The position numbers and the translations under genes are program-made. Under the pieces are notes generated by a model. The model was not told the origin of the DNA. It saw nothing but the letters and a program-made list of their open reading frames with translations, and ran no database searches. From Phaeobacter sp. B1627 (GTDB lineage Bacteria > Pseudomonadota > Alphaproteobacteria > Rhodobacterales > Rhodobacteraceae), in contig NZ_VCNK01000013.1 in the NCBI RefSeq assembly GCF_006265095.1, forward strand, positions 1-64,000: 64,000 bases of DNA, written 5' to 3'. Shown here piece after piece: positions 40,437 to 62,325 of this stretch. Numbering within the stretch: position 1 is the stretch's first letter; each line of letters begins with the position of its first letter.

Positions 40437-40513
40437 CCCAACCCATACCCCGTGGCTGAGCATTCAGACACGACACATCAGACACCAAAGCCAGACAAGA
40501 GGACGACACCCCA

Positions 40514-41965
40514 ATGGTATCCCGCGTCATCCCCGTAGACAGTTTCGATTTCGTCCTCTTCGGCGCCACCGGCGACCTTGCGCGGCGCAAAATCCTGCCC
40601 AGCCTGTTCCACCGGTTCCAGATCGGCCAGTTCGACGAAAGCTGCCGCATCATCGGTGCCTCGCGCAGCCAGATGGATCAGGCCGGATTTCAGACCCTGG
40701 TCAGCGACGCGCTGACCGAATTCGGCGGCGTCCCCAAAGAGGACCAGGCCGATGTCGACCGGTTTCTGGCGCTGCTGGACTATGCGTCGGTCGATGCCCG
40801 TGGTGACGGTGGCTGGTCCGATCTCGGTGCCAAGCTGCGCGAAGGGGTCGTGCGCGCCTTCTATCTTTCGGTCGCGCCCAGCCTGTTTGGGGATATCGCC
40901 GGTCAGCTCAAGGCGACCGGCATCGCGGATGACGAAAGCCGTATCGTGGTCGAGAAACCCTTTGGCCACGATCTGGCCTCGGCTCAGGCGCTAAACGCCG
41001 CGCTGCGGGCCCATTTCCGCGAAGACCAGATCTACCGGATCGACCACTACCTCGGCAAGGAGACGGTGCAGAACCTGATGGCCCTGCGCTTTGCCAACTC
41101 GCTGTTTGAGCCGCAGTGGAATTCGCACCACATCGACCATGTCCAGATCACCGTCGCCGAGAGCATCGGCGTCGCCGGGCGTGGCGAATACTATGACAAA
41201 TCCGGCGCCATGCGGGACATGGTGCAGAACCACCTGATGCAGCTCCTCTGCCTCACCGCGATGGAGCCGCCCTCCACCTTTGAACCCAACGCGGTTCGCA
41301 ACGAGAAACTGAAGGTGATCGAAAGCCTGGAGGCGACGCCGATCGACAATATCGTGCGCGGTCAGTACCGGGCCAAGGAAGGCGGCGACAGCTACCTTGA
41401 TCATGCCGGCGACCGGCATTCGCGCACCGAGAGCTTTGTCGCGATGAAGGTCGAGGTGGCCAACTGGCGCTGGGCGGGAACGCCCTTCTATCTGCGGACC
41501 GGGAAATGCCTGCGCCAACGGGTCTCGGAGATCGCAGTCTACTTCCGCAAGCCGCCGCACAACATCTTTGGCGAGGACAATGCGATCGACGGCAATATGC
41601 TGGTGATCCGGCTGCAGCCGGACGAAGGCATCACGCTCAAGACCACCATCAAGGACCCCGGCCCCGGCGGCATGCGCCTCACCAGCGCGGATCTGGACAT
41701 GACCTTTGCCGACAGCCTGCCCGAGGCCGGACGCCCGCAGGACGCATACGAGCGGCTGATCATGGATGTGATCCGCGGCAACCAGACCCTGTTCATGCGC
41801 GGCGATGAGGTCGAGGCCGCCTGGGCCTGGGCCGATCCCATCGTGACCGCATGGGACGACTCCACCCGGGAGCCGCAGCCCTATGATCAGGGCGGCTCCG
41901 GTCCGGAGGATGCGCTTTTGCTGCTGCACCGCGATGGTCGTCGCTGGCGCCCCATCGGCGCCTGA
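40514..41965 (+). CDS. zwf: Glucose-6-phosphate dehydrogenase
   Basis: This 483-aa NAD(P)-dependent enzyme makes 6-phosphogluconolactone. The coenzyme-binding start is FGATGDLARRKILPSL and the active site is RIDHYLGKETVQN. It lies 77 bp after pgi. The usual lactonase gene pgl is not found next to it. Confidence 0.97.
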   Translation: MVSRVIPVDSFDFVLFGATGDLARRKILPSLFHRFQIGQFDESCRIIGASRSQMDQAGFQTLVSDALTEFGGVPKEDQADVDRFLALLDYASVDARGDGGWSDLGAKLREGVVRAFYLSVAPSLFGDIAGQLKATGIADDESRIVVEKPFGHDLASAQALNAALRAHFREDQIYRIDHYLGKETVQNLMALRFANSLFEPQWNSHHIDHVQITVAESIGVAGRGEYYDKSGAMRDMVQNHLMQLLCLTAMEPPSTFEPNAVRNEKLKVIESLEATPIDNIVRGQYRAKEGGDSYLDHAGDRHSRTESFVAMKVEVANWRWAGTPFYLRTGKCLRQRVSEIAVYFRKPPHNIFGEDNAIDGNMLVIRLQPDEGITLKTTIKDPGPGGMRLTSADLDMTFADSLPEAGRPQDAYERLIMDVIRGNQTLFMRGDEVEAAWAWADPIVTAWDDSTREPQPYDQGGSGPEDALLLLHRDGRRWRPIGA

Positions 41966-42063
41966 CCAACGCCCCTGATCAATACCCCTGACCGGGGCAC
42001 CCCGATCAAAGCCCGCCCAGAGACCCGTGACACGCAATCGAACTGACCGAAAAGAGGCACGCC

Positions 42064-43875
42064 ATGACGCTCCACGCCACGCTCGCCGCCGTTACTGACC
42101 GTATCATCGAACGCAGCGCCCCCACCCGTGACGCCTATCTGGCGCGGATGCGTGCCGCGAGCCTCAAGGGTCCGGCCCGCGCCCACCTCAGCTGCTCCGG
42201 GCAGGCCCATGCCTATGCCGCCACCGGCGAGGATCAGGACACGCTGGCCAGCGGCACCGGCGGTCACCTCGGCATTGTCACCGCCTATAACGACATGCTT
42301 TCGGCGCATCAGCCGTTTGAAACCTACCCGATGCTGATCCGGGAGGCCGTGCGCGAGGTCGGCGGCACCGCTCAGGTCGCAGGCGGCGTGCCCGCGATGT
42401 GCGATGGCGTCACCCAGGGCGAGGCCGGCATGGAGCTGTCTCTTTTCTCGCGCGACAGCATTGCCATGTCCGTGGGCATCGCCCTGTCGCACAATGTCTT
42501 TGACGCCGCTGTCTTTCTCGGCGTCTGCGACAAGATCGTCCCGGGTCTGGTGATCGGGGCGCAGGCGTTTGGCCACCTGCCCTCCGTCTTCCTGCCGGCC
42601 GGACCAATGACCTCGGGGCTGTCGAACGACGAAAAGGCCCAGATCCGTCAGAAGTTCGCCAAGGGCGAGGTCGGCCGGGACGAGCTGCTCAAGGCCGAAA
42701 TGGCCGCCTACCATGGTCCCGGCACCTGCACCTTCTACGGGACCGCCAACACCAACCAGATGTTGATGGAGTTCATGGGGCTGCACCTGCCCGGCTCTTC
42801 CTTTGTCAATCCGGGCACCGAGCTCCGCGATGCGCTGACCCGCGAAGGCGCCAAACGGGCGCTGTCGCTCTCTGCGCTCGGCAATGCCTACACCCCCACC
42901 TGCGATATCCTCGACGAGAAAGCATTCGTGAACGGCATCACCGGGCTGATGGCCACCGGGGGGTCGACCAACCTACTGATCCACCTGATCGCCATGGCGC
43001 GCGCCGGCGGCATCATCCTCGACTGGCAGGACTTCTCGGAAATCTCCGACGTGGTGCCGCTGCTGGCCCGCGTCTACCCCAACGGGCTCGCGGATGTGAA
43101 CCACTTCCATGCCAGCGGCGGCCTGGGCTATATGATCGGCCAGCTGCTGGACGCGGGCTTCCTGCATCCTGATACCAAGACGGTCACGGGCGAAGGCCTC
43201 GGCTCCTACCTGATGGAGCCCTTCCTCGACGGGCCCACCCTGACATGGCGTCAGGGCACACGCGAGAGCCTCAACGACAAGATCCTGCGCCCGACCTCCG
43301 ATCCGTTCCAGGCCAGCGGCGGGCTGGCGCGCCTGTCGGGCAATCTCGGGACCGGCGTGATGAAAATCTCCGCCGTCGCCGAGGAAAACCGGATCGTGGA
43401 GGCGCCTGCGCGCGTGTTTCATGACCAGGACGAGGCCAAGGCCGCCTTCAAGGCCGGCGAGCTGAACGAAGGCGATGTGGTGATCGTCGTCCGCTTCCAG
43501 GGGCCGAAGGCCAACGGCATGCCGGAACTTCATTCCATGACCCCCTTTCTGTCCATCATGCAAGGGCGCGGCCAGAAGGTGGCCCTGGTCACCGACGGCC
43601 GCATGTCCGGTGCTTCCGGCAAGGTGCCCTCGGCGATCCACGTGGTCCCCGAGGCGCTGGACGGCGGCCCGATCGCCAAGCTTCAGGACGGCGATATGGT
43701 CCGCGTCGACGCCGTCAGCGGCACGCTGGAGGTGCTGACCGAAGGTGTGATGGACCGCCCGGCCACCACCGCCGACCTCTCCGCCTATCAGCACGGAACC
43801 GGCCGCGAACTCTTTGCCCTGTTCCGAAATTCCGTCACTTCCGCCGATACAGGCGCAACCGTATTTGGAGTCTGA
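42064..43875 (+). CDS. edd: Phosphogluconate dehydratase
   Basis: This 603-aa Fe-S enzyme of the IlvD/Edd family turns 6-phosphogluconate into KDPG. Motifs are [31 protein letters not shown] and [12 protein letters not shown], with cluster cysteines. It is full length and has AAAGAGG upstream. Confidence 0.97.
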
Positions 43876-43878
43876 TCC

Positions 43879-44529
43879 ATGCCCATTCTGCCCCAGGACG
43901 CCAGCAAACAGGCGCGCGAGATCTGCGCCCTTGCCCCTATCGTTCCCGTACTCGTGGTCCATGACGTTGCCCACGCCCGTCCCCTTGCCGAAGCGCTGGT
44001 CGCGGGTGGGTTGCCCGCGCTGGAGGTCACGCTGCGGACACCCGTCGCACTGGAGGTGATCCGCGAGATGGCCAAGGTCGAAGGCGGCGTCGTCGGTGCC
44101 GGTACTCTGGTCACCCCGGCCGACATTCGCGCCGCACTGGAGGCGGGCGCCAAATTCGGCGTCTCGCCCGGGGCCACCGACGTGCTGATGGAAGCCGCCG
44201 AGGCAGAAGGTCTGGCGATGCTGCCCGGCGCGGCCACCGCATCCGAGGCGATGGCGCTGCTGGCGCGGGGCTATGACATGCTGAAATTCTTCCCCGCCGA
44301 AGCCTCTGGCGGTGCCCCTGCCCTGAAGGCCATTGGCGCGCCCCTGCCGCAGATCTCCTTCTGTCCGACCGGTGGCGTCAGCCCGGCCAATGCCGACAGC
44401 TACCTGAGCCTGCCCAATGTGATCTGCGCCGGTGGCAGCTGGGTTGCGCCTGCGAAACTGGTCGAGGCAGGCGATTGGGCCGCAATCGAGGAGCTGGCCC
44501 GTGCCGCCAGCCAGTTGCCACGCGGCTGA
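43879..44529 (+). CDS. eda: KDPG aldolase (2-dehydro-3-deoxyphosphogluconate aldolase)
   Basis: This 216-aa class I aldolase splits KDPG into pyruvate and glyceraldehyde 3-phosphate. It shows GGLPALEVTLRTPVALE, the Schiff-base Lys in MLKFFPAEASGG and FCPTGGVS. It starts 3 bp after edd and ends the operon. Confidence 0.97.
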   Translation: MPILPQDASKQAREICALAPIVPVLVVHDVAHARPLAEALVAGGLPALEVTLRTPVALEVIREMAKVEGGVVGAGTLVTPADIRAALEAGAKFGVSPGATDVLMEAAEAEGLAMLPGAATASEAMALLARGYDMLKFFPAEASGGAPALKAIGAPLPQISFCPTGGVSPANADSYLSLPNVICAGGSWVAPAKLVEAGDWAAIEELARAASQLPRG

Positions 44530-49979: not shown

Positions 49980-50816
49980 ATGCTGGAACTTGGAACATTG
50001 TTGCCCCTACTTGCGGTTGCCGCTGCTGCAGGGGTCATCGGAGGCATTCTTGCGGGGCTGTTGGGCGTTGGAGGTGGTATCGTCATCGTGCCCGCATTGT
50101 ACTTCGCCTTGTCGCTGACCGGCATGGATCCGGCACTGACGATGCAGGTCGCGGTGGGGACCTCTCTTGCGACGATCGTCTTCACCTCGATGTCCTCCGG
50201 CTATGGCCACTACAAGAAGGGTGCGATCGACACCGGGTTGCTGCGGCTTTGGGCGCCATCGATCCTGATCGGCGTGGTCATCGGCGGCATTCTGGGCGGG
50301 CTGGTCTCCGGCAATGTCCTGCTGGTGGTGTTCGCCACTGTTGCGATGGCGGTGGCGCTGGACATGATCCTGCGCAAACCCAATGACGCCCCCGAGCCCA
50401 GGTCGTTCTCGAAACCGGTCTGGGCGGGCCTTGGTGTTTTTGCCGGTGGCGTGTCCGCCATGATGGGGATCGGCGGCGGCACCGTCTGCGTCCCGACGCT
50501 GAGCTTTCTCGGCTATGACATCCGCAAGGCCGTGGGCACATCCGCAGCCATCGGTTTCATCATCGGCCTGCCCGGCGCCGTGATCTATATGGTGACCGGT
50601 TTCGGCGCCGAAGGCCTGCCGCCGCTCTCCTTCGGCTATGTCAATCTGCTGCTTGCGGTGGTGATCATCCCGCTGTCGACAACCTTTGCCCGCGTCGGCG
50701 TGAAGGTGGCGCATGCCATCCCGCGCCGCATGCTGAAGCTGTGTTTCGGCTTTTTCCTGATGCTCACCTCGCTGCGGATGTTCGCCGATCTGGCCCAGCA
50801 GGCAGGCTGGCTGTGA
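49980..50816 (+). CDS. TauE/SafE-family sulfite/anion exporter
   Basis: This 278-aa inner-membrane protein has eight or so helices and the repeated family motifs GGILAGLLGVGGGIVIVPAL and MMGIGGGTVCVPTLSF. Family members export sulfite, sulfoacetate or related anions. It overlaps a GntR/FCD regulator gene by one base (TGATG). A link to sulfite release by the monooxygenase locus 4-9 kb away is possible but unproven. Confidence 0.92.
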   Translation: MLELGTLLPLLAVAAAAGVIGGILAGLLGVGGGIVIVPALYFALSLTGMDPALTMQVAVGTSLATIVFTSMSSGYGHYKKGAIDTGLLRLWAPSILIGVVIGGILGGLVSGNVLLVVFATVAMAVALDMILRKPNDAPEPRSFSKPVWAGLGVFAGGVSAMMGIGGGTVCVPTLSFLGYDIRKAVGTSAAIGFIIGLPGAVIYMVTGFGAEGLPPLSFGYVNLLLAVVIIPLSTTFARVGVKVAHAIPRRMLKLCFGFFLMLTSLRMFADLAQQAGWL

Positions 50817-51484
50817 TGCGCCCGACGCCCACAACGGAGGAATTGCGCGCGGCGATCCTGAGCGGCAGCCTGGCCGTGGACGACAGGCTGCTGCCCGAGC
50901 GCACATTGGCGGATCGGTTGGAGATCTCGCGGAGCCGACTGCGTGCGGTATTGGACGATCTCGCCCGAGAGGGTCTGATCTTTCGCCGCCACGGTCAGGG
51001 GACTTTTCTGCAGCCGCCTCCGGCGCAGGCGTCGGAACGGTTTGGAGTGCTGGCCCGGCGCGTGTCACCGGGCGATCTGATGGAAGTCAGGCTCGAACTG
51101 GAACCGGCCCTCGCTGCCTATGCGGCCGAACGGGGCAGCGCCGAAGACAAGGCCCGCCTGCTGCGGCTGATGGAAAACACGCTGCGTGCGCCGGATCTGG
51201 CCGGGTATGAGCGCGCCGACGATATTTTTCACTATAAAATTGCCGAAATGTCCGGAAACGCCGTTTTCCTGACCCTGTTCGAGGAAATTCGCAGCCTGCG
51301 GCAAGCGGCCGAGTGGACCCGCGCCCGCCAAACGGCCATGGGGCCGGAGGAAATCGCCGAGAATTCGATCCAGCATGGCGCGATCGCCAATGCGATCTGT
51401 GCCGGCGCAGCCCCTTCCGCCAGACGCGCCATGCGCCTGCATCTGCAGCATGTCGAGGCCTCATTGCTGAAGTCCCTGCAGTAG
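50816..51484 (+). CDS. GntR-family regulator with FCD domain
   Basis: This 222-aa regulator has a winged HTH (ERTLADRLEISRSRLRAVLDDLAREGLI) and an FCD ligand domain with its metal-binding Asp/His set (DDIFHYKIAEMSGN, HGAIANAI, HLQHVE). It is coupled to the TauE-like gene and so probably controls it. FCD regulators often sense organic acids. ATG 50816 is fixed by the overlap. Confidence 0.92.
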   Translation: MRPTPTTEELRAAILSGSLAVDDRLLPERTLADRLEISRSRLRAVLDDLAREGLIFRRHGQGTFLQPPPAQASERFGVLARRVSPGDLMEVRLELEPALAAYAAERGSAEDKARLLRLMENTLRAPDLAGYERADDIFHYKIAEMSGNAVFLTLFEEIRSLRQAAEWTRARQTAMGPEEIAENSIQHGAIANAICAGAAPSARRAMRLHLQHVEASLLKSLQ

Positions 51485-51507: not shown

Positions 51508-52836
51508 TCAGGGGCGATCCACCGGAAGCCCGCTGGGCACCTGCTCCGGCACCCCGTAGGGGGGATCCGAGACCGAGAGGGAGCCGGTCAGGCTTCTGAG
51601 AAATGCCACCAGCGCGTCAATCTCGGGCTCTGTGCGCGGCTGCAGGTCGATGTCGCGCCGTGCCGCCTGGCGCGCCATCTCGAAGCGGTCGGCCTGCACC
51701 ATGAAATCCACCGCCGTCAGCCATGGAACCTCCGGCAGGGTCAGATCGCTTCGCCGCCAGTTGCTACGTGCAGTCTCCGGGTCCAGGTGATGGCGGATCA
51801 TCGCCTCAAGGGTCGGATAGGCGCCATTGTGCCCATAGGGGGCGGTCAAGGCCACATTGCGCAGGCTGGGCGTGCGGAAGCGATAGGCATCGGCGAGATC
51901 GTCGCTTTCTCCCATGCGGCCGGTATCTCGCGCGATCAGATCAAAACGGCGGGTGCGGCCGGGCCCGAAGGCCGGGAGCCCGAGTGCCCGGAACCCCTGA
52001 TCGGTGAAGAACGGGCCAGAATGGCATGCGGAGCATCCCGCGTCACCGAAAAACAGGTCCCTGCCCTTCTGCGCCGCCGGTGAAAGCGCCGTTGCATCCC
52101 CCGCAAGATAAGCGTCGAAGGGGCTGTCCGTACTGCGAAATTCCAGACTGATAAAGGCCGCCAGCGCATTTGCGATCTCGACGATGGTGACTTCTTCGGG
52201 CGTGTCGATGTGGTCAAATGCGGAGACGAAACCTGCTCCGTAGGCCGGGATCGTCCGCACCCGCTTTGCCAGGATCGGCCAGCCCTTGTCGATGCGGTCG
52301 AACACGGCCCCTGCGACTTCGTTTTCCTCGGTGCCCCCCGCCATCTCGCGCTCCGAGCTGAGTGGGAACAAGGCCTGAGCGGCCAGAACGCTGTCGAGCC
52401 CCGGCGGCAGCCATTCCTCGGCCGGCGTGTTGAAGCCATTGCCATAGAGGTTATCCCGGCTGATCCGCCCGTCGTGCATCAGCACCCGGAAATGGTTGGC
52501 ACCGAGGTTCCACAGACCGGGCGCATTGCGCGGAACCCGCCGTTCGATCCGCCCCCGCCCCTGCCCGCCGGTCCGCTGCGGCCCGAGCCCCTCGCCGCCC
52601 TCGCCAATTCCGAGAGATAGCGCATCGGAAGAGCCGAATGCCGGGTGATGACAGGTCGCGCAGGCGATATTTCTGTTCCCCGAGAGGATTTTATCATAAA
52701 ACAGGAGCTGACCCAGGTCAGCCTGCGCCTTTGAGACGGGTCGGAAATCCTGAGCCCGCAGCGGCGACAGCGCATCTTCGGCCCATACCGGAGCCGAGAG
52801 CCATAGGCCGAGAACGAAGCTTCCGAGGAGCGACAC
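51508..52836 (-). CDS. Di-heme cytochrome c peroxidase/MauG-family protein
   Basis: This exported protein of about 442 aa has signal peptide LLGSFVLGLWLSAPVWAED and two haem-binding motifs (CATCH near residue 56 and CSACH near 280). It also has the typical LFYDKILSGNRNIAC, RNAPGLWNLG, LMHDGR and PSLRNVALTAPYGHNG. It resembles the MauG/MbnH side of the family more than classic peroxidase. The start is probably GTG 52836; the frame upstream overlaps the divergent gene and is rejected. Confidence 0.87.
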   Translation of the reverse strand: MSLLGSFVLGLWLSAPVWAEDALSPLRAQDFRPVSKAQADLGQLLFYDKILSGNRNIACATCHHPAFGSSDALSLGIGEGGEGLGPQRTGGQGRGRIERRVPRNAPGLWNLGANHFRVLMHDGRISRDNLYGNGFNTPAEEWLPPGLDSVLAAQALFPLSSEREMAGGTEENEVAGAVFDRIDKGWPILAKRVRTIPAYGAGFVSAFDHIDTPEEVTIVEIANALAAFISLEFRSTDSPFDAYLAGDATALSPAAQKGRDLFFGDAGCSACHSGPFFTDQGFRALGLPAFGPGRTRRFDLIARDTGRMGESDDLADAYRFRTPSLRNVALTAPYGHNGAYPTLEAMIRHHLDPETARSNWRRSDLTLPEVPWLTAVDFMVQADRFEMARQAARRDIDLQPRTEPEIDALVAFLRSLTGSLSVSDPPYGVPEQVPSGLPVDRP

Positions 52837-52839
52837 GAT

Positions 52840-53313
52840 ATGATGCGGATCTTTTTGCTGATTTTGGCTCTCATTCCCCTGTCTGCTCAAGCCGACATTG
52901 AGGACGCGCGCGATCTGATGGAAACCGGAGCCTATGAGGCGGCCTATGAGGCGTTTCTGCCTGCGGCGCGATCGGGGAATGCCGATGCGGAGGAACTGAT
53001 CGGCGTGATGTTCGCGCTTGGTCTTGGGGTCACTCAGGACGACGAACGTGCCTTTGAGTGGTATCTGCGCTCCGCCATGAAAGGGCATCCCGGCGCGCAG
53101 TCGGGGGTCGGCTGGTATTATGAGATCGGACGCGGCCTGCCTGCCCCGGATCTGACGCGGGCCTATATGTGGTACACGCTGTCCGCCATCGGCGGGGACC
53201 CTGACGCCGCGATCAGCCTTGAAGAGGTGGTCAAGAAGATGACGCCTGATCAGATCGAAAAAGCGCATATACTGGTCGATGACTACAAGGGTTGGATGTA
53301 TCCGTTTCATTGA
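52840..53313 (+). CDS. Exported Sel1-repeat protein
   Basis: This 157-aa protein has signal peptide MMRIFLLILALIPLSAQA and two to three Sel1-like helical repeats (AEELIGVMFALGLGVTQDDERAFEWY, AQSGVGWYYEIGRGLPAPDLTRAYMWYTLSA). Sel1 repeats bind partner proteins. Its start is only 3 bp from the divergent start of the di-heme cytochrome, so the two may be co-regulated. GAGGAG precedes ATG by 9 nt. Confidence 0.87.
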   Translation: MMRIFLLILALIPLSAQADIEDARDLMETGAYEAAYEAFLPAARSGNADAEELIGVMFALGLGVTQDDERAFEWYLRSAMKGHPGAQSGVGWYYEIGRGLPAPDLTRAYMWYTLSAIGGDPDAAISLEEVVKKMTPDQIEKAHILVDDYKGWMYPFH

Positions 53314-53664: not shown

Positions 53665-54723
53665 CTACTTCAGGTCCTTCATCCGAGCGGCGTTGATTTC
53701 AGTCTCCGCTGCGGCGACCGCCTCAGTCAGGGCGGTGAACGCCGCGTCCCCTTTGGTCACATTGGCTTTGAACCAGTCATAGACCGGTGAAGCGGCGTCT
53801 TTGAACGCGGCTTTTTGGTCGGGTGTTGGTACATAAAGGTCGCCGCCACCTTCTACGAACTCCTGATAGGCGGCAATGGACTTGCGCTTGGGCGAGGCAA
53901 AGGTCGCCTGCTGCAATGCGTAGAACCCGTCGACGACCACCTGCCGCATATCCTCCGGCATGGCCACGAAGGTTTCATTCGACATCCACCACAGCGCGCC
54001 CATGTAGGCGTGACCGTCCAGCGTCACATACTGCAGGCCGGCATCCGGGAACTTCATGCCCATAATGTCGGTAATGCCATTCTTGGAGCCTTCGACGACG
54101 CCCGTCTGGAAGGAGGTGAACAGCTCCGGCCACGGGATCGGAGTGGGCGATGCGCCCAGCGCCTTGACCAGTTCCTGGGGAAGGTCGGCAACCACCGTCC
54201 GGATCTTCAGCCCAGCCATATCGCCCGGCTCTGCCACACGGCGTTTGGTATTGGCAAAGTTCCGCCAGCCGCCAGTGTTGCCGATGGTCATCAGGCGAAT
54301 GGTGTCACCAGAATCCTCGAGCGCCATGTCGCGAATGGTGCGGGTGAAATCGCCGGACAGAACATGTTCCGCCACCCGGTCGTCCGCCATCAGATAGGGC
54401 AGATCAAGCACCTGCACGTAGGGAAACAGCCCCGAGGCGCCGCCAGAGGTGGAGATGTAGACATCGATCGAACCATCGGCCACACCCTGGAGGCATTCTG
54501 CGCCGTTCGAGCACAGTTGGGTGCCGATGAACAGTTCCACCTCGATGGCCCCGTTGGAGGCTGCCTCGACGTAGTTCTTGAACACAACGAGGCCATCATA
54601 ATCCTCGTCATTCTCGTTGGAGTTGGCTGTCGCGCGAATGGTGTAATCCGCAGCGGCTGCCGAGAGCGCGGTCGCGGACAAAAGGGCCGCAACGGCGGCG
54701 GTTTTCAGAGCGGTCTTGAGCAT
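53665..54723 (-). CDS. dctP: TRAP transporter substrate-binding protein DctP
   Basis: This 352-aa periplasmic protein of the DctP family has signal peptide AAVAALLSATALSAAAA. It has the conserved GLKIRTVVADLPQELVKALGASPTPIPWPELFTSFQTGVVEG, in which the Arg usually holds a carboxylate or other acid group. It is the last gene of the leftward catabolic row. The substrate may be an organic acid or, from context, a sulfonated sugar. Confidence 0.94.
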   Translation of the reverse strand: MLKTALKTAAVAALLSATALSAAAADYTIRATANSNENDEDYDGLVVFKNYVEAASNGAIEVELFIGTQLCSNGAECLQGVADGSIDVYISTSGGASGLFPYVQVLDLPYLMADDRVAEHVLSGDFTRTIRDMALEDSGDTIRLMTIGNTGGWRNFANTKRRVAEPGDMAGLKIRTVVADLPQELVKALGASPTPIPWPELFTSFQTGVVEGSKNGITDIMGMKFPDAGLQYVTLDGHAYMGALWWMSNETFVAMPEDMRQVVVDGFYALQQATFASPKRKSIAAYQEFVEGGGDLYVPTPDQKAAFKDAASPVYDWFKANVTKGDAAFTALTEAVAAAETEINAARMKDLK

Positions 54724-54780
54724 ATGGTTTCCTCCCTGGTGCTCTTGTTATTCGTCTTATTCGTCAGATTGTTGGTCGGA

Positions 54781-56073
54781 TCAATTCGCGAACCCGGTCA
54801 AACGCGGGATCGTCATGGAAATCGCGGGGACATAGGTGATCAGAAAGATCACCGCAATCTCCACCGCCAGAAACGGCAGGATCGCACGGGCGATTGTGGT
54901 CACGCGCTCGCCCGACACGGCCGAGGCCACGAACAGCACCAACCCCATGGGCGGTGTCGCCAGGCCAACCGTGAGATTCACGCACATGATGATGGCGAAA
55001 TGGACGGAATCGACACCCATGCCGGTAAACACCGGCCCAAGGATCGGACCCAGGATGATAATGGCAGGCCCCGCATCCAGAAACATCCCGACGCCAAACA
55101 ACAGCAGGTTGATCAAAAACAGCAGCAGCAGCGGGTTTTCGGTCAGCGATAGAATGAAGTCGGCCAGATGTTCGGGCGCATGGCTGAGCGAGACCACGGT
55201 CTTGAACGACATTGCCGCGCCGACCAGCAGCAAGACCACCGCCGAGGTGATCCCGGCCCGGGTCAGGATATTGGGCAATTCCGTCACGGTCAGCGTCCGC
55301 AGGACAAAAAAGCCGATGATCAACGCATAGGCCACGGCCACGGCAGCGGCCTCGGTAGGGGTGAAGACGCCGAGGAGAATACCCCCGAGGATGATCACCG
55401 GGGTCATCAGCGGAAAAAACGCCTTGAGGCTGGCCTGGCCGCGCTCGCCCCAGGTGTAGCGGCGCGAGGCCACCGGGAAATCGTAGCGGTCGGCCATGAC
55501 CTTGACCATCAGCATCAGGCCGACACCGACCAGGATACCGGGCACCAGACCCGCCAGGAACAGCGCCGCAACGCTTTCACCCATGACATAGGCATAGATG
55601 ATCATGATCCCCGAGGGCGGAATGATCGGGCCGATCACGGAACTGGCTGCGGTGATGGCAGCGGCAAATCTGCGACTGTATCCCTGTTTCTCCATCGCCG
55701 GGATCAACATTGACCCAAGCGCCGAAGTATCTGCCACCGCAGAGCCGGACAGCCCGGCAAACAGCATCGACGACAACACGTTCACATGCGCCAGACCGCC
55801 CCGCAGATGCCCCATCAGAGCCTGCGAGAACTCGACCAGACGCAGCGTGATGCCGCCTTTGTTCATCAGCTCACCCGCCAGCATGAAGAAGGGGATCGCC
55901 ATCAGCGGGAAACTGTCCATCCCATTGTAGAGATTGCGGTACAGCAGCGTGATATCGCGCTCTTGCCCGTTGAACCACAACAGCAGGCCCGGCGCCGCCA
56001 GCAGGCCGAAAAACACCGGCAGACCGATCATCAGAAAGACAAGAAAGAGAGGCAGGAACCAGATCAACATCAC
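54781..56073 (-). CDS. dctM: TRAP transporter large permease DctM
   Basis: This 430-aa membrane protein of the DctM family has about twelve helices and the blocks PLMAIPFFMLAGELMNKGGIT, GLSGSAVADTSALGS and IIPPSGIMIIYAYVMGES. GTG 56073 overlaps the dctQ stop (GTGA), and ATG 56070 is equally possible. Confidence 0.95.
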   Translation of the reverse strand: MMLIWFLPLFLVFLMIGLPVFFGLLAAPGLLLWFNGQERDITLLYRNLYNGMDSFPLMAIPFFMLAGELMNKGGITLRLVEFSQALMGHLRGGLAHVNVLSSMLFAGLSGSAVADTSALGSMLIPAMEKQGYSRRFAAAITAASSVIGPIIPPSGIMIIYAYVMGESVAALFLAGLVPGILVGVGLMLMVKVMADRYDFPVASRRYTWGERGQASLKAFFPLMTPVIILGGILLGVFTPTEAAAVAVAYALIIGFFVLRTLTVTELPNILTRAGITSAVVLLLVGAAMSFKTVVSLSHAPEHLADFILSLTENPLLLLFLINLLLFGVGMFLDAGPAIIILGPILGPVFTGMGVDSVHFAIIMCVNLTVGLATPPMGLVLFVASAVSGERVTTIARAILPFLAVEIAVIFLITYVPAISMTIPRLTGFAN

Positions 56074-56660
56074 TCGGCCCCTTCGACTGTGGCGTAGCGG
56101 ATTTCCGGCAGCCGGGCACCGCCGCCAAGGAGCGCGACGATACGGTGCAGGATCAGCTCCGCATTGACAAGGATCAGCAGCCCGATCCCCACCAGCAGCG
56201 ACATCATCATCCAGCTGCGCGGCACCCGATACCAGCTGTCAAAGCCCAGCGACGTCGGCAGGTAGAGCGATGCGGTGGTGAAGCGGCCACCGATGCCGGT
56301 GACCTCTTTGTATCCGATTTGAATGGCGACGATCAGGACCAGCAGGCTGAGACACAGAAGCAGCAGCGACAGCGCGCTGCCGAGCCGGACGGGAAGCAGC
56401 GCCGACAGGGTGTCAATGGCCACAAAGCCACCTTGGCGAAAGGCCGTGGGCGCCATCAGCCCGGTCATCCAAAGCATACAGAACCGGGCGGCTTCATCAG
56501 GCCAGGGCAGCGCGTTGTTCAACACGTAGCGACAGAAGACCTGAATGAGGATGGCCACCACCATGGCGGCCACGGCGGCGCAGCCCACCCAGCGCCCGAG
56601 GCGCAGCAGGGTCGCGTTGACCCAATACAGCGGTGTCACTACCGCCATCAAAGCGTTCAT
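56070..56660 (-). CDS. dctQ: TRAP transporter small permease DctQ
   Basis: This 196-aa protein has four helices and the DctQ blocks QVFCRYVLNNALPWPDEAARFCMLW and GGFVAIDTL. It lies 72 bp after the flavin reductase gene, which places the transporter in the same leftward transcription unit as the monooxygenase genes. Confidence 0.93.
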   Translation of the reverse strand: MNALMAVVTPLYWVNATLLRLGRWVGCAAVAAMVVAILIQVFCRYVLNNALPWPDEAARFCMLWMTGLMAPTAFRQGGFVAIDTLSALLPVRLGSALSLLLLCLSLLVLIVAIQIGYKEVTGIGGRFTTASLYLPTSLGFDSWYRVPRSWMMMSLLVGIGLLILVNAELILHRIVALLGGGARLPEIRYATVEGAE

Positions 56661-56732
56661 TTCCGTCCTCCCCTATACAGACATCCCGAGGCGTCCCTCA
56701 GGCTCTGCACCCTGCCCGGATCAATGCCCGGA

Positions 56733-57254
56733 TCAATGCGCCGAAATTCGTCCCAACTGTCCCTTGAAAAAAGTCAGCGGCTCGCCGCCGTCCCGCATTT
56801 CCGCCCGGTTTACGACGCCCAGCACAATGGCATGGTCTCCTCCGTCGTATACCGCGCGGCGGGTACATTCAAACCGGGCCAGACACCCCTCAAGCACGGG
56901 CACGCCTTCGGCATTGCAGGCCAGATCCAGCGCCCGCAACCCGCCTGCATCCTTTGCCACCCGGAAACACAGGTCGTCCTGATCTGCCGCCAGAACATGG
57001 ATCGCGTAATGCTCGGCGCGTTCGAAATGCGGAAACCGCCGGGAGGTGCGATCCGGCGACCACAGCACCATCGGCGGCGTCAGCGAGACGGACGAAAAGC
57101 TGCTGGCGGTGATCGCCACGACGCCTTCGTCAGTGGCGGCGGTCACGATGGTGACCCCGGTGGCAAAGCGCCCGAAGGCGTCGCGCAGCAGCCGCGTGTT
57201 GCTTTCGTCCGGCACAAAGGCCTGAAAGCTCTTGTCGCTCATCTGTAGGCCCAT
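56733..57254 (-). CDS. Flavin reductase family protein
   Basis: This 173-aa flavin reductase (HpaC-like) has FGRFATGVTIVTA, GVVAITASSFSSVSLTPPMVLW and a C-terminal FFKGQLGRI. It should use NAD(P)H to make FMNH2 for the SsuD-type monooxygenase two genes upstream. It would be the counterpart of SmoA if the locus is a sulfo-SMO pathway. It starts 1 bp after the aldo/keto reductase stop, with GGGAGG upstream. Confidence 0.93.
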   Translation of the reverse strand: MGLQMSDKSFQAFVPDESNTRLLRDAFGRFATGVTIVTAATDEGVVAITASSFSSVSLTPPMVLWSPDRTSRRFPHFERAEHYAIHVLAADQDDLCFRVAKDAGGLRALDLACNAEGVPVLEGCLARFECTRRAVYDGGDHAIVLGVVNRAEMRDGGEPLTFFKGQLGRISAH

Positions 57255-57255
57255 G

Positions 57256-58146
57256 TCACGGAACCTCCCGGCCCAGACCGGTCTGGTAGAGGTTGAACCA
57301 GGTTTCCCGGTCCATCTCGACCGTCAGCGCATCCGAGATAGACTTGATCCGGGTCAGGTTATTGGTGCCCAGAACCGGCAGGATCCGCGCCGGGTGGCGC
57401 AGCAGAAACGCCACCGCCACCGCTGCGCGATCAACGCCCTGTGCCGCTGCGATCTGATCCATCAGCGCCGTCAGATCGCTGGTCCCGGTCATCAGGCTGC
57501 CGCCGCCCAAGGGCGACCAGGCCATGACCGGCTGACCGTTTTTCTGATGGAACGCCAGGTCGCCATTGGTGAAGGGCGACAGCTCGGAGAGGGAAAGCTC
57601 GATCTGGTTGGTGGCCAGCGGCGTGCGCATGCCCGACTGCAGCAGCTCCCAGTCCCAGGGCCGGAAATTCGACACGCCAACGGATTTCACCTTGCCCGCC
57701 TTGACCAGATCATCCAGCGCGGCACCGGTTTCCATATGATCCATCAAAGGATCCGGGCGGTGGATGAGCAGCAGGTCGATCTGCTCTATCGCCATTTCAC
57801 GCAGGGAGGTCTCGACCGACAGCTCGATATGGGTCCGCGAGGTGTCATAATATTTCACCGGTTTGTGCGCATAACGCCCGATCGGGGCGACGATATCGCA
57901 TTTGGTCACGATCTCCATCCGGTCGCGCAGGGAGGGGTTGGCCTTCAATGCGGCACCAAGGATCGCCTCGGCGCCGTAGTCGCCGTAGATATCCGCCTGA
58001 TCAAAGGTGGTGATGCCCTGTTCGAGACAGGCCTCGATCTTGGCCTCTACATGTTTGACGGAGGTGTCGCTGTCGTTGCCGATCCGCCACATGCCGTAAA
58101 TCAGGCGCGAAAATTCCAGGTCATCGTTGAGTTTGATACGGTCCAT
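57256..58146 (-). CDS. Aldo/keto reductase, YdhF type
   Basis: This 296-aa NAD(P)H-dependent reductase is close in layout to E. coli YdhF: FDQADIYG with the catalytic Tyr, then TKCDI, LLLIHRPDPLMD, GVSNFRPWDWELLQS and MAWSPLGGG, and the C-terminal WFNLYQTGLGREVP. It could reduce an aldehyde released by the monooxygenase, as SmoB reduces 6-oxo-glucose to glucose. It overlaps the upstream gene by TAATG. Confidence 0.93.
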   Translation of the reverse strand: MDRIKLNDDLEFSRLIYGMWRIGNDSDTSVKHVEAKIEACLEQGITTFDQADIYGDYGAEAILGAALKANPSLRDRMEIVTKCDIVAPIGRYAHKPVKYYDTSRTHIELSVETSLREMAIEQIDLLLIHRPDPLMDHMETGAALDDLVKAGKVKSVGVSNFRPWDWELLQSGMRTPLATNQIELSLSELSPFTNGDLAFHQKNGQPVMAWSPLGGGSLMTGTSDLTALMDQIAAAQGVDRAAVAVAFLLRHPARILPVLGTNNLTRIKSISDALTVEMDRETWFNLYQTGLGREVP

Positions 58147-59300
58147 TAGCGGCGAACTCCTACACCAAGCGGCGTTTCCGGTGTGCTCGCGGGCACCCGG
58201 CCATAGGCCTCCGGCAGCGAGCAGGTTTTCATATTGGGCAAAATACGGCTGCCAAAATGGCGCGCCTCGTCAATATGCGGATAACCGGACAGGATGAAAG
58301 CGCGGATGCCCATTTTCTGATAGGCTTCCAGCTTGCTCATCACCTGATCGGTGGACCCGACCAGCGCCGCGCCGCAGCCCGACCGCGCCCGCCCGATCCC
58401 TGTCCACAGGTTGGGTTCGATGAAACCGGCATCATCCGCGATTTCCCGGTTTTTGGCCTGATGGCTGACCCCAAGCGATTTGGCATCCAATGCCCGGTCA
58501 CGGATCGCAGTGCCCTGCTCGTCGTCGAGTCTGGAGACGAGGTAATCCGCATATTCCCGCGCTTCTGCCTCGGTGTCACGCACGATGACATGTACCCGCA
58601 GACCATAGTCCAGAGTGCGGTTGTATCTCTCTGCGACCGCGTGAACGGCTTCCATCCGGGCGCGCAGCTCTTCCATTTTTTCCGGCCACATCAGGTAGAC
58701 GTCGCAATGCTGCCCGCACAGCTCCAGCGCCGCCGGGGAATAGCCGCCGAAATACAAAAGCGGCCCGCCGCTCTGATAGGGCCTGGCCGGGTCCGTGGTG
58801 AGGCCCTCGAAATTGTAGACCTCGCCCTTGTAGTTGATCTCATCCTGCGTCCAGGCCTGTTTCAGGATCTCCACCACCTCACGCGAACGCTGATACCGAT
58901 AGTCGCTGGCCGCCGTCTCTCCGGGAAAATCCGAGGAGATGATATTGACCGTCAACCGCCCCTCAAGCATGTGATCCAGCGTCGCAATGGTGCGGGCCAG
59001 CATGATCGGCTGCATCTCGCCGCAGCGCACCGCCGCGAGCATGTTGATCTTTGACGTGATCGGCGCGCAACCCGCAACGAAGGACAGGGTGTCCTGACCG
59101 ACCTGATAGGAAGAGGGGCACAGGATATTGCGGAACCCCTGTTCTTCGGCGGTCTTCACGATCTCGGAACAATGGGCCCAGGAGGACCGCAGGTCCCCGT
59201 CCGGCAACCCGAGAAACTGATAGTCGTCCGAGCACAGAGCCGAAAACCACGAGACTTCGGCGGCATCCAGATCGGGAGAGGTGATGGGGACTACGGTCAT
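58146..59300 (-). CDS. LLM class flavin-dependent oxidoreductase (SsuD-type sulfonate monooxygenase)
   Basis: This 384-aa FMNH2-dependent monooxygenase of the SsuD group should split a C-S bond, giving an aldehyde and sulfite. It shares with SsuD the segments GLRVHVIVRDTEAEA (Arg/His of the active site), EPNLWTGIGRARSGCGAALVG, ILSGYPHIDEA and PLLYFGGYSPAA. A Cys in NILCPSS replaces the nearby SsuD Cys region. Placed first in a row with an AKR and flavin reductase, it best fits a SmoC-like sulfoquinovose monooxygenase. Alkanesulfonate use remains possible. Confidence 0.9.
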   Translation of the reverse strand: MTVVPITSPDLDAAEVSWFSALCSDDYQFLGLPDGDLRSSWAHCSEIVKTAEEQGFRNILCPSSYQVGQDTLSFVAGCAPITSKINMLAAVRCGEMQPIMLARTIATLDHMLEGRLTVNIISSDFPGETAASDYRYQRSREVVEILKQAWTQDEINYKGEVYNFEGLTTDPARPYQSGGPLLYFGGYSPAALELCGQHCDVYLMWPEKMEELRARMEAVHAVAERYNRTLDYGLRVHVIVRDTEAEAREYADYLVSRLDDEQGTAIRDRALDAKSLGVSHQAKNREIADDAGFIEPNLWTGIGRARSGCGAALVGSTDQVMSKLEAYQKMGIRAFILSGYPHIDEARHFGSRILPNMKTCSLPEAYGRVPASTPETPLGVGVRR

Positions 59301-59411
59301 TTCTGTCTCCTGATGAGCGAACGAATTTCCTCTTGCGTAGCAGCAGATTTAAAGTACATCAATGGTGCATCAATTATTTTCATCCCCTCCCCTCCCACAG
59401 TCGGCGATTGC
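59301..59411. promoter_or_regulatory. Divergent promoter region of the sulfonate locus
   Basis: These 111 bp separate the leftward monooxygenase row from the rightward GntR-Gfo/Idh pair. Two direct repeats CATCAAT (59357-59363 and 59368-59374) are spaced 11 bp, one helical turn, and are a candidate site for the GntR regulator. Confidence 0.5.
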
Positions 59412-60134
59412 ATGACCCCGATACATGACCTTGATCGCGACACCCCGACGGCGCTGCCGATCTATATGCAGATCAGCGAATTCCTGATCCGCGAGATTGC
59501 GGCTGGGCGTCTGGTCGACGGGCAGCGGCTGGCGCCGGAACGGGAGCTGGCAAAAAGCCACGGCACAACGGTCCGCACCCTGCGCAAGGCCCTGTCGGAG
59601 CTTGAGAAAAAAGGCATGCTGGAGCGCGTGCAGGGATCGGGGAACTACATCCGGAGCACCCACGCGGCGCCGAGCGTCTATTCCATGTTCCGGCTGGAGC
59701 TGACCACCGGAGGCGGCCTGCCGACAGCGGATATTCTGGACCTTGCCGTGGTGGAGAAACCGGCGGATCTGCCCCGGTTCGGGCGCGCGGATCACGGCAC
59801 CCGCATTCGCCGGCTGCGCTATCTGAACCGCCTGCCCATCGCCGTCGAAGAGATCTGGCTTGATGGGGCGGCGGGAGAGATCAGACCCCAAAAGATGTCG
59901 GATTCGCTCTATCGGACCTATCAGTTGCAGCTGGGCCTGATCATCGCCCGCGCCGAAGACCGGGTCTCGATCGGTGCCGTCCCGGATTGGGCACCGCAGA
60001 GCTTTGCGCTCCGGCCCGGCACGCTCACCGGATTTATCGAACGTTTCAGCTGGGCGCAGGATCCTGCGCCGGTGGAATTTTCCAGAACCTGGTTCGACAC
60101 AGACAAAGCGCTCTATGTTCAGCGCCTGATTTGA
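59412..60134 (+). CDS. GntR-family regulator with UTRA domain
   Basis: This 240-aa protein has a GntR winged HTH (LPIYMQISEFLIREIAAGRL, PERELAKSHGTTVRTLRKAL) and a UTRA ligand domain (RIRRLRYLNRLPIAVEEIWLDG, FIERFSWAQDPAPVEFSRTWF). UTRA regulators usually bind sugars or small acids. ATG 59412 is used. It is 12 bp before the Gfo/Idh gene and divergent from the monooxygenase row, so it probably regulates both. Confidence 0.9.
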   Translation: MTPIHDLDRDTPTALPIYMQISEFLIREIAAGRLVDGQRLAPERELAKSHGTTVRTLRKALSELEKKGMLERVQGSGNYIRSTHAAPSVYSMFRLELTTGGGLPTADILDLAVVEKPADLPRFGRADHGTRIRRLRYLNRLPIAVEEIWLDGAAGEIRPQKMSDSLYRTYQLQLGLIIARAEDRVSIGAVPDWAPQSFALRPGTLTGFIERFSWAQDPAPVEFSRTWFDTDKALYVQRLI

Positions 60135-60146
60135 GGGAGAAGACCC

Positions 60147-61253
60147 GTGTCAGATATCATTCACTACGGCATCATCGGCTGCGGCATGATGGGGCAGGAA
60201 CATCTGCGCAATATCGCGCTGCTGGAGGGGACCCGGGTTTCGGCGATCTTTGAACCGGATCCGCACATGGCCACGGCCAGCCTGGCCTTTGCCCCCGGAG
60301 CGCAACTGGTGAACAGTATCGAGGCGCTGCTGGCGGTCGAAAACCTCGACTGCATTCTCATCGCGAGCCCGAACTTCCGCCATGTGGAGCAACTGGAAGC
60401 GCTCGCCGCCACGCGCCCGCTGCCGGTGCTGGTGGAAAAACCTTTGTTCACCGATGCCGCGCATATCGCCCGGCTCGACGCCTTTCGCGCCGCCTATCCG
60501 GCGCCGGTCTGGGTGGCGATGGAATACCGCTACATGCCGCCCGTCGCGACCCTGCTGACCGAGGCGGAGGCCGCCACCGGCGGCATTCGGATGCTGACCA
60601 TCCGCGAACATCGCTTTCCGTTTCTTGAAAAGGTCGGAGACTGGAACCGGTTCAACCGGTTCACCGGCGGCACCTTCGTCGAGAAATGCTGTCACTTCTT
60701 TGATCTCATGCGGTTTGCACTGAAATCCGAACCCCTGCGGGTGCTGGCCTCCGGCGGCATGGATGTGAACCATCTCGACGAGACATACGATGGCGAGACG
60801 CCAGATATCTTCGACAATGGCTATGTGATTGTGGATTTCGCCAATGGCGCCCGCGCGATGCTGGAGCTGTGCATGTTCGCAGAAGGATCGCGCTATCAGG
60901 AGGAGATTTCGGCAGTGGGGCCCAAGGGCAAGATCGAGGCGCATGTCCCGGGACCGGGGCGGTTCTGGCCTGAACATCTCGGCGCGCCGCCGGTGCCGCA
61001 GGTCGTGGTCTCCCCACGCACCCCCAAGGGGCCGGAGGTGCGGGACATCCCCGTCGATCCGACGCTTCTGGAGGCCGGAGACCACAATGGCTCCACCTTC
61101 TATCAGCATCGCGGGTTTCTCGAAATGGTCCGGGGTCTGCGCCCGCGGCCCGACGTCTCTCTCGAGGACGGCAAAATGGCGGTTCTGATGGGGATGGCTG
61201 CGCAAATCTCCATGACGGAGCACCGGGCCGTGGACATCGCCGAGCTGCTGTAG
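60147..61253 (+). CDS. Gfo/Idh/MocA-family protein, candidate NAD-dependent sulfoquinovosidase
   Basis: This 368-aa Rossmann-fold protein has the NAD site GIIGCGMMGQEHLRNI and the family VEKP. In place of the usual DxGxHxxD active-site motif it has GGTFVEKCCHFFDLMR. The GTG start has GAGGGAGAAG upstream. The family includes dehydrogenases and also glycosidases that use NAD (GH109, GH188). GH188 members release sulfoquinovose from its glycosides, which would suit this locus. A simple sugar dehydrogenase cannot be excluded. Confidence 0.87.
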   Translation: MSDIIHYGIIGCGMMGQEHLRNIALLEGTRVSAIFEPDPHMATASLAFAPGAQLVNSIEALLAVENLDCILIASPNFRHVEQLEALAATRPLPVLVEKPLFTDAAHIARLDAFRAAYPAPVWVAMEYRYMPPVATLLTEAEAATGGIRMLTIREHRFPFLEKVGDWNRFNRFTGGTFVEKCCHFFDLMRFALKSEPLRVLASGGMDVNHLDETYDGETPDIFDNGYVIVDFANGARAMLELCMFAEGSRYQEEISAVGPKGKIEAHVPGPGRFWPEHLGAPPVPQVVVSPRTPKGPEVRDIPVDPTLLEAGDHNGSTFYQHRGFLEMVRGLRPRPDVSLEDGKMAVLMGMAAQISMTEHRAVDIAELL

Positions 61254-61293
61254 CGCCCTCAAGCGCCGGCATGGCCGTCCCCGGGAGAAAAGG

Positions 61294-61320
61294 CCGCCCT
61301 GCCCGACCTGTCGGGCGGTT
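61294..61320. terminator. Hairpin between convergent Gfo/Idh and glk genes
   Basis: CCGCCC (61294-61299) can pair with GGGCGG (61313-61318), or GCCCGA with TCGGGC inside it, and GGTTT follows on the plus strand. Its place between convergent genes fits a terminator. Confidence 0.55.
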
Positions 61321-61362
61321 TGGCGTCCCTGCCCCTCGGGCTTTGGCGCCTCTCGCGAGAGG

Positions 61363-62325
61363 CTAGCGCGCAGCCAGATAGTTGCGCGCGCCGATCAGGC
61401 CAAAATTCGGCTGATGATAGAGGTGCAAGGGCAATTCCTGACGCCAGGACGTATGGCGCCCCCCCGCATTGAACGCATCGACAAAGGCCTGGTCAAAGAT
61501 CCACGGGTTTGCGGCTGCCACACCGCCCGTCACGAACACGCCGCCCTTGGCCGCGAAGACGAGGCCGAGGTCACCGGCGACCCCGGCGAGGTATTGCGCA
61601 AACAATGCAACGCTGCGCACCGCTGCGGTGTCGAGCCGGGCCTTGGCGGATGCAAAAATCTCCGCGCCCGTGGTCAGAGGCGCGGTCAGATGCATGCTCT
61701 TGGCCACCGCCCGGTAGAACACCGGCAGCCCGGTCCCCGACAGGATCGCCTCGGCTTCCACCACCAGCCCCGGCCCCATGCCGACCTCCGGCCATTCCTC
61801 GCGCAATGCTTCGAAAATCGGAACTTCCTCTGGCGTACGCGGCCCCAATGCCACGTGGCCGCCCTCGCCCGGTACGACACAGGGGTCCCCGTTGCTCCAG
61901 ACCAGCGCGCCGACGCCCAGCCCGGTGCCGGGGCCGATGATCAGGCAGGGCTCCTTCGGGAAAACCGCCTGGCCTTGCAGCACGGTCACATCGCTTTCGC
62001 CGACCGAGGCCAGCGACCAGGCGGCGGCTTCGAAATCATTCAGTACGCGCGCGCGCTCAATCTTCAGCGATGACGCAATGCCGCGTTCGGAAAAGCTCTG
62101 GTGGGCGTTGGTCAGCTGTACCGATCCCCCCCGCACCACGCCCGCGGCCGCGATGACGGCCCGACCCGGGGCGCTGCCACGATGGGCCGCAAAATCGGCA
62201 CAGGCCTGCTCCAGATTCAGCGTCCCCTTGGTGTCATAGCGAGACTGCTCAAGGATCTCGCCCTCGGCATTCACGGCCGCAAGCCGCATATTGGTCCCGC
62301 CTACATCAGCGATGAGATTCCACAT
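61363..62325 (-). CDS. glk: Glucokinase
   Basis: This 320-aa Glk-type hexokinase phosphorylates glucose with ATP. It has DVGGTNMRLA (phosphate loop), LNDFEAAAWSL, IIGPGTGLGVGAL and GEGGHVALGP. GGAGGGG precedes ATG. It converges on the Gfo/Idh gene. If the locus yields glucose from a sulfonated sugar, this is the step that feeds the zwf-edd-eda route at 38.8-44.5 kb. Confidence 0.95.
   Translation of the reverse strand: MWNLIADVGGTNMRLAAVNAEGEILEQSRYDTKGTLNLEQACADFAAHRGSAPGRAVIAAAGVVRGGSVQLTNAHQSFSERGIASSLKIERARVLNDFEAAAWSLASVGESDVTVLQGQAVFPKEPCLIIGPGTGLGVGALVWSNGDPCVVPGEGGHVALGPRTPEEVPIFEALREEWPEVGMGPGLVVEAEAILSGTGLPVFYRAVAKSMHLTAPLTTGAEIFASAKARLDTAAVRSVALFAQYLAGVAGDLGLVFAAKGGVFVTGGVAAANPWIFDQAFVDAFNAGGRHTSWRQELPLHLYHQPNFGLIGARNYLAAR

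Follow-up and report, generated by a model that had tools for sequence, protein, structure and literature searches.

A predicted sulfoquinovose monooxygenase locus of Roseobacter-clade type in Phaeobacter sp. B1627, with a candidate TRAP importer and a MauG-like/Sel1 gene pair

A 64-kb stretch of the Phaeobacter sp. B1627 genome (contig NZ_VCNK01000013.1, positions 1 to 64,000; hereafter the window) was analysed, and a sulfoquinovose monooxygenase (sulfo-SMO) locus of the marine Roseobacter-clade type is very probably encoded in it. Gene identity, gene order, conservation and active-site residues were observed directly; substrates, transport, regulation and flux are predictions. In the proposed route, sulfoquinovosyl glycerol (SQGro) or free sulfoquinovose (SQ) would enter the cell through a tripartite ATP-independent periplasmic (TRAP) transporter, DctPQM, and a GH188 enzyme, using NAD+, would free SQ from its glycosides. 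SmoA would reduce flavin mononucleotide (FMN), SmoC with FMNH2 and O2 would break the C-S bond, yielding sulfite and 6-oxo-glucose, and SmoB would convert 6-oxo-glucose to glucose.

Results

Identity of the Smo enzymes

The monooxygenase shared 76.5% and 75.2% identity with the PDB chains 7olf and 7oh2, respectively, as against 33.5% with SsuD (1m41) and 33% with 7jv3. In a tree, it was split together with 7olf and 7oh2 from the SsuD group with a support of 100/100. The aldo/keto reductase (AKR) was 64.7% identical to 7bby and 43.1% identical to YdhF, with bit scores of 410 for the SmoB chain versus 200 for YdhF, and the tree separated it from YdhF with a support of 100/100. We take 7olf and 7oh2 to be the published SmoC structures, and 7bby and 7bbz to be those of SmoB; the PDB names of these chains are only 'Methanesulfonate sulfonatase', 'Alkanesulfonate monooxygenase' and 'Aryl-alcohol dehydrogenase'. 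An assignment of the AKR to YdhF was rejected by bit scores, identity and tree. The flavin reductase was named SmoA by its PF01613 match and by its position 1 bp after smoB.

The monooxygenase matched the SsuD model TIGR03565 at 245.7 bits, and SsuD (188 bits) was its closest characterised relative outside SmoC. Both matches would suit an alkanesulfonate desulfonation system of the SsuD/MsuD type with an unrelated AKR beside it. The model score, however, lies below the cut-off of 518.2 bits, and the identities and the tree set the protein apart from SsuD, so that it was rejected as an alkanesulfonate monooxygenase. As the GH188 gene also adjoins the monooxygenase gene in 75 of 77 loci, we regard an alkanesulfonate system as scarcely credible. 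The original prediction had proposed a sulfo-SMO locus, to be checked by trees of the two enzymes; both grouped with the SmoC and SmoB chains and not with SsuD and YdhF, and these results together with the GH188 residues described below strongly support that claim.

Layout of the locus

The genes named in the original prediction (monooxygenase, AKR, flavin reductase and glucokinase) were intact open reading frames (ORFs) in the window, and Pfam matches agreed with their gene families. The genes smoC, smoB, smoA, dctQ, dctM and dctP form a close row on the minus strand, and the gntR-GH188 pair is divergent on the plus strand. The tight coupling reported in the original prediction was found on the sequence: smoC and smoB overlap by TAATG, and 1 bp separates smoB from smoA. 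The interval covered by that prediction also holds two elements that it had left unnamed, a complete TRAP transporter (53665-56660) and the divergent gntR-GH188 pair (59412-61253). The features are as follows.

53665..54723, minus strand: dctP, TRAP substrate-binding protein, candidate SQ/SQGro binder (PF03480; anion-site residues R154, R175 and N215)
54781..56073, minus strand: dctM, TRAP large membrane subunit (PF06808)
56070..56660, minus strand: dctQ, TRAP small membrane subunit (PF04290)
56733..57254, minus strand: smoA, flavin reductase (PF01613; position; 78 of 80 named loci)
57256..58146, minus strand: smoB, AKR, predicted to convert 6-oxo-glucose to glucose (64.7% to 7bby; tree 100/100)
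58146..59300, minus strand: smoC, predicted FMNH2-dependent sulfoquinovose monooxygenase (76.5/75.2% to 7olf/7oh2; tree 100/100)
59358..59373, minus strand: candidate operator TTGATGCACCATTGAT (one exact copy in the genome; similar site in 90 of 90 loci)
59412..60134, plus strand: gntR, GntR/UTRA regulator (PF00392 and PF07702; ATG at 59412, start re-assigned from 59172)
60147..61253, plus strand: sqgA-type gene for a predicted GH188 NAD+-dependent sulfoquinovosidase (554 bits to 8zn9; residues kept)

Predicted GH188 sulfoquinovosidase

The Gfo/Idh/MocA-type protein encoded at 60147-61253 scored 554 bits with 8zn9 and 371 and 367 bits with two SqgA structures; the next best match, an inositol dehydrogenase, reached 62 bits. 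The active-site residues of ArSqgA are named in PMC10755693, and eight of the nine given in the part of that paper available to us were identical in the alignment. Lys107, Tyr136, Arg166, Leu170, Lys172, Glu189, His193 and His321 of ArSqgA correspond to K98, Y127, R156, L160, K162, E179, H183 and H313 here. The ninth, Glu163 in the same text, falls on a valine of the ArSqgA chain in the alignment and on an arginine of our protein; this position is followed by Glu in both proteins (E154 in ours). The GH188 protein keeps the sulfonate-binding and catalytic residues of SqgA and is a predicted sulfoquinovosidase.

Generic Pfam models match the same protein, and the inositol 2-dehydrogenase model TIGR04380 does so below its cut-off, as might be seen if it were an ordinary sugar or inositol dehydrogenase and the cluster handled free SQ only. 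The bit scores given above and the retention of the sulfonate triad and catalytic residues speak against such a dehydrogenase, which we consider very improbable.

No GH31 sulfoquinovosidase was apparent in the genome, because its sole GH31 protein looks like an alpha-glucosidase by scores (255 bits with an alpha-glycosidase versus 91 with YihQ). The original prediction had pointed out that neither this enzyme nor an ATP-binding cassette (ABC) importer of the known type was seen. Both are indeed absent from the cluster, but their absence leaves no gap, because the GH188 enzyme and the TRAP transporter occupy those places. A missing sulfoquinovosidase was rejected, as the GH188 enzyme is present by score and residues.

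Conservation of the cluster

A contig scan for SmoC confirmed at least 575 relatives. The best 80 of them are referred to as the named loci (L016-L095), and with ten further loci from the genus they make up 90 SmoC loci. GntR was adjacent in 79 of the 80 named loci; SmoB was present in 79 and SmoA in 78, so that the smo row is kept beyond chance. Upstream sequence of at least 2.1 kb was available for 77 named loci, and an adjacent, divergent GH188 gene was seen in 75 of these, all but L042 and L081. SmoC was found in 14 of 18 genomes of the genus, our genome included (E <= 1e-100). With the E-value limits applied, a survey of 120 genomes of the family detected SmoC in 47 genomes, DctP in 42 genomes and GH188 in 57 genomes. 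The 47 SmoC genomes had GH188 in 46 cases (43 within 10 kb) and DctP in 31 (30 within 10 kb).

A smo-TRAP row was also seen on a metagenome-assembled contig labelled Granulosicoccaceae (L089; SmoC identity 83%), which may reflect horizontal transfer or mis-binning.

TRAP transporter as the candidate importer

All three TRAP subunits were recognised by their Pfam models (PF03480, PF04290 and PF06808), each over its cut-off. In the 80 named loci, the slot after smoA was taken by the TRAP genes in 62, by a first ABC type in 6 (only partial in L039), by a second ABC type in 3 and by neither in 8; one locus was too short. The TRAP and ABC systems (nine loci) thus replace each other in this slot. 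In the genus, TRAP was present in 11 of the 14 genomes with SmoC and the first ABC type in 2; the remaining genome had neither. GH188 co-occurred with DctP in the family survey, being present in 40 of 42 DctP genomes versus 17 of 78 others (kinship ignored).

DctP residues R154, R175, N215 and W198 were conserved in 76 of 76 aligned sequences (the window included, and a few from the same genomes), and they align with Arg152, Arg173, Asn213 and the aromatic residue 196 of 4P47. IseP, which binds isethionate, holds the sulfonate by the equivalent pair of Arg and the equivalent Asn, according to the accessible text of PMC11668362.

We consider it likely that DctPQM is the SQ/SQGro importer of the locus. 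It could instead import another organic acid or sulfonate and merely be a frequent neighbour, since carboxylates are the usual ligands of known DctP proteins, TRAP is missing from some SmoC clusters, and two DctP genomes (G031 and G065) have neither SmoC nor GH188 within 12 kb. The fixed position after smoA, the replacement by ABC systems there and the co-occurrence with GH188 make this unlikely, as does the pairing of TRAP with GH188 in eight loci that carry a different, SQ-isomerase-like pathway.

In L048, L051 and L068 the second ABC type follows smoA; the transporter genes of L048 also have a gene of the alpha-amylase family among them.

Loci without SmoC

SmoC was lacking in 11 of the 42 DctP genomes; 9 of these 11 had GH188 within 12 kb, and all 11 loci were examined. 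Eight of them (L107-L113 and L115) contained a sugar kinase, an isomerase, GH188 and TRAP in every case, an aldolase and a DeoR regulator in seven each and the MauG-like/Sel1 pair described below in six; the Smo enzymes were absent. Family scans covered L107, one dehydrogenase of L112 and proteins of L114 and L115. The only NCBIfam match of the L107 isomerase was to SftI, the model for sulfoquinovose isomerase; its score of 279 bits is under the cut-off of 700. No such kinase, aldolase or isomerase was found in the 90 SmoC loci (E <= 1e-10). The two pathways share TRAP, GH188 and often the MauG-like/Sel1 pair, as expected of a common entry module.

Among the remaining loci, L117 had smoA and TRAP, and L114 had TRAP and the MauG-like/Sel1 pair. 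L116 (7374-10839) carried smoA, smoB, gntR, GH188, TRAP and an operator-like site with no smoC. A lost gene, an assembly artefact or another desulfonating enzyme are possibilities for this locus.

MauG-like/Sel1 gene pair

Two further genes adjoin dctP at 51508-53313 of the window.

51508..52836, minus strand: MauG-like di-haem protein of the cytochrome c peroxidase (CCP) family, candidate accessory (PF03150; two CxxCH motifs)
52840..53313, plus strand: Sel1-repeat protein, candidate accessory, divergent from the MauG-like gene (PF08238)

The best NCBIfam match of the first protein was the MauG-like family TIGR03981, under its cut-off. Relatives of it were found in the downstream flank of 42 of the 80 named loci, and 41 of these 42 were TRAP loci. 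Of the 52 loci with a MauG-like gene (at least 50% identity), 49 had a divergent Sel1 gene no more than 200 bp away. At 53% identity or more, the protein occurred in 29 of the 120 family genomes, 22 of which encode it no more than 10 kb from DctP; 27 of 42 genomes with DctP had it versus 2 of 78 without (Fisher P 5e-14, kinship ignored). Of 59 genomes with weaker paralogues, only G023 had one no farther than 10 kb from DctP, and only G072 had one that close to SmoC. Next to the clusters of the close relatives L016-L018, L098 and L099 no MauG-like gene was detected, and this gene is therefore not essential. We lean towards regarding the pair as a functional part of the locus.

A PhyH-type dioxygenase gene was observed near the pair in L114 (4633-5379), L115 (8913-9605) and L112 (14725-15390), with matches also in L022, L024 and L049.

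Regulator and candidate operator

A site within one mismatch of TTGATNCANNATTGAT was located 67-201 bp upstream of smoC, on the smoC strand, in all 90 SmoC loci, and a reversed-pattern control gave no site in the same loci. The stricter form TTGATRCACYATTGAT was exact in 69 of the 80 named and 10 of the 10 further genus loci. It occurred exactly once in our genome, in the smoC-gntR gap. Only one of the 11 SmoC-less loci (L116) had an operator-like site. Both transcription units are probably under the control of the divergent GntR/UTRA protein, which would bind the predicted operator, the conserved site between them. A sigma-70 promoter candidate read by eye in the gap was dropped, as the promoter scan gave none there.

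Points that weigh against the proposed assignment

Several observations count against this reading of the locus, its importer and its regulation. SmoA is assigned by family and position only. The anion site of DctP would fit a sulfonate and equally a carboxylate. Neither TRAP nor either ABC type is carried by 8 of the 80 named loci, and other uptake routes therefore exist. A 46% paralogue of the binding protein of the first ABC type is encoded elsewhere in the genome, beside a mannonate-dehydratase-like gene, and could in principle import SQ. Three weaker operator-like sites, with two mismatches, also lie elsewhere in the genome, and the promoter scan found no sigma-70-like promoter in the smoC-gntR gap. 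No dedicated sulfite-handling gene was conserved beside the locus.

Glucokinase, Entner-Doudoroff genes and other neighbours

61363..62325, minus strand: glucokinase (intact ORF; Pfam)

The original prediction had taken the nearby glucokinase and Entner-Doudoroff genes to fit a glucose product. Upstream sequence of 4 kb or more was available for 70 named loci, of which 2 (L017 and L018) had a glucokinase gene near the cluster. Of the ten further genus loci, L097 (the same genome as L017), L098 and L100 also had one nearby. Glucokinase was rejected as a cluster member on the count in the named loci, and the argument drawn from it is unsupported. The Entner-Doudoroff genes are present, with pgi, zwf, edd and eda at 38826-44529 by Pfam; the end of eda is about 9 kb from dctP and about 14 kb from smoC, and nothing tying them to the cluster was found in this check of presence.

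A TauE/SafE-type exporter gene (49980-50816) overlaps that of a GntR/FCD regulator in the window (49980-51484). Exporters with at least 60% identity were near three named loci (L016-L018) and L097, L098 and L100, that is, only in some members of the genus, so that this gene is a genus-level neighbour. In 18 of the 80 named loci (e.g. L020 17478-18467), the smo strand also encodes, downstream, a PF03601 membrane protein, presumably of the YeiH family and a putative anion exporter. A glycerol-3-phosphate dehydrogenase-like gene lies close to the cluster in L020 (18471-20051), L048 and L051, which would fit glycerol released from SQGro.

Discussion

About 10 billion tons of sulfoquinovose are made and degraded yearly, as stated in the available part of PMC10755693, and bacteria of the Roseobacter clade are among its marine degraders. 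As far as the literature searched shows, the entry of SQ into such cells is less settled than its breakdown. A TRAP transporter shared by two breakdown pathways gives a specific, testable answer to the question of entry and a possible marker for metagenomes, and the MauG-like/Sel1 companion could hint at an extracytoplasmic step. We give about an even chance to the wider proposal that marine Rhodobacterales share an SQ entry module, a dedicated TRAP transporter with GH188, which is joined to either sulfo-SMO or an SQ-isomerase/kinase pathway like the sulfo-Embden-Meyerhof-Parnas (sulfo-EMP) route. It would come with an undescribed, presumably periplasmic MauG-like di-haem/Sel1 accessory.

No description of a TRAP transporter with a sulfoquinovose monooxygenase was found in the literature searched, and the likeliest Roseobacter papers were outside the search. 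Titles retrieved for sulfoquinovose and cytochrome c peroxidase included no on-topic paper on the MauG-like/Sel1 pair. The TRAP importer common to two pathways and the gene pair beside it are possibly new, and the TRAP link may have been published already.

Sulfo-SMO has been predicted in many aquatic genomes (PMC13372026, in the part available). The accessible text of PMC10755693 reports near-universal GH188 in the sulfo-SMO clusters of the Roseobacter clade, and the locus studied here therefore belongs to a kind already described: the clade and the combination of GH188 with sulfo-SMO are the same, and no difference from these clusters was established. The sulfo-SMO (sulfo-ASMO) systems of Agrobacterium tumefaciens and Novosphingobium aromaticivorans, as described in the available parts of PMC9594981 and PMC12890257, resemble it in that a flavin reductase is encoded in one row with SmoC and SmoB, and in the predicted products glucose and sulfite. 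They differ in that GH188 here takes the place of GH31. Compared with Agrobacterium, the TRAP transporter stands in place of its reported SQGro ABC transporter. DctP also has the two conserved Arg and one Asn of IseP; it differs in being a distant relative (95 bits), in two cysteines, C71 and C77, that never vary among the 76 sequences, and in its ligand, which would be SQ or SQGro. The sulfo-EMP-like clusters of SQ isomerase, kinase and aldolase are similar in TRAP and GH188 (eight of eight) and in the MauG-like/Sel1 pair (six of eight), and they are distinguished by the DeoR regulator (seven of eight), by the kinase and isomerase (eight) and aldolase (seven), and by the lack of Smo enzymes.

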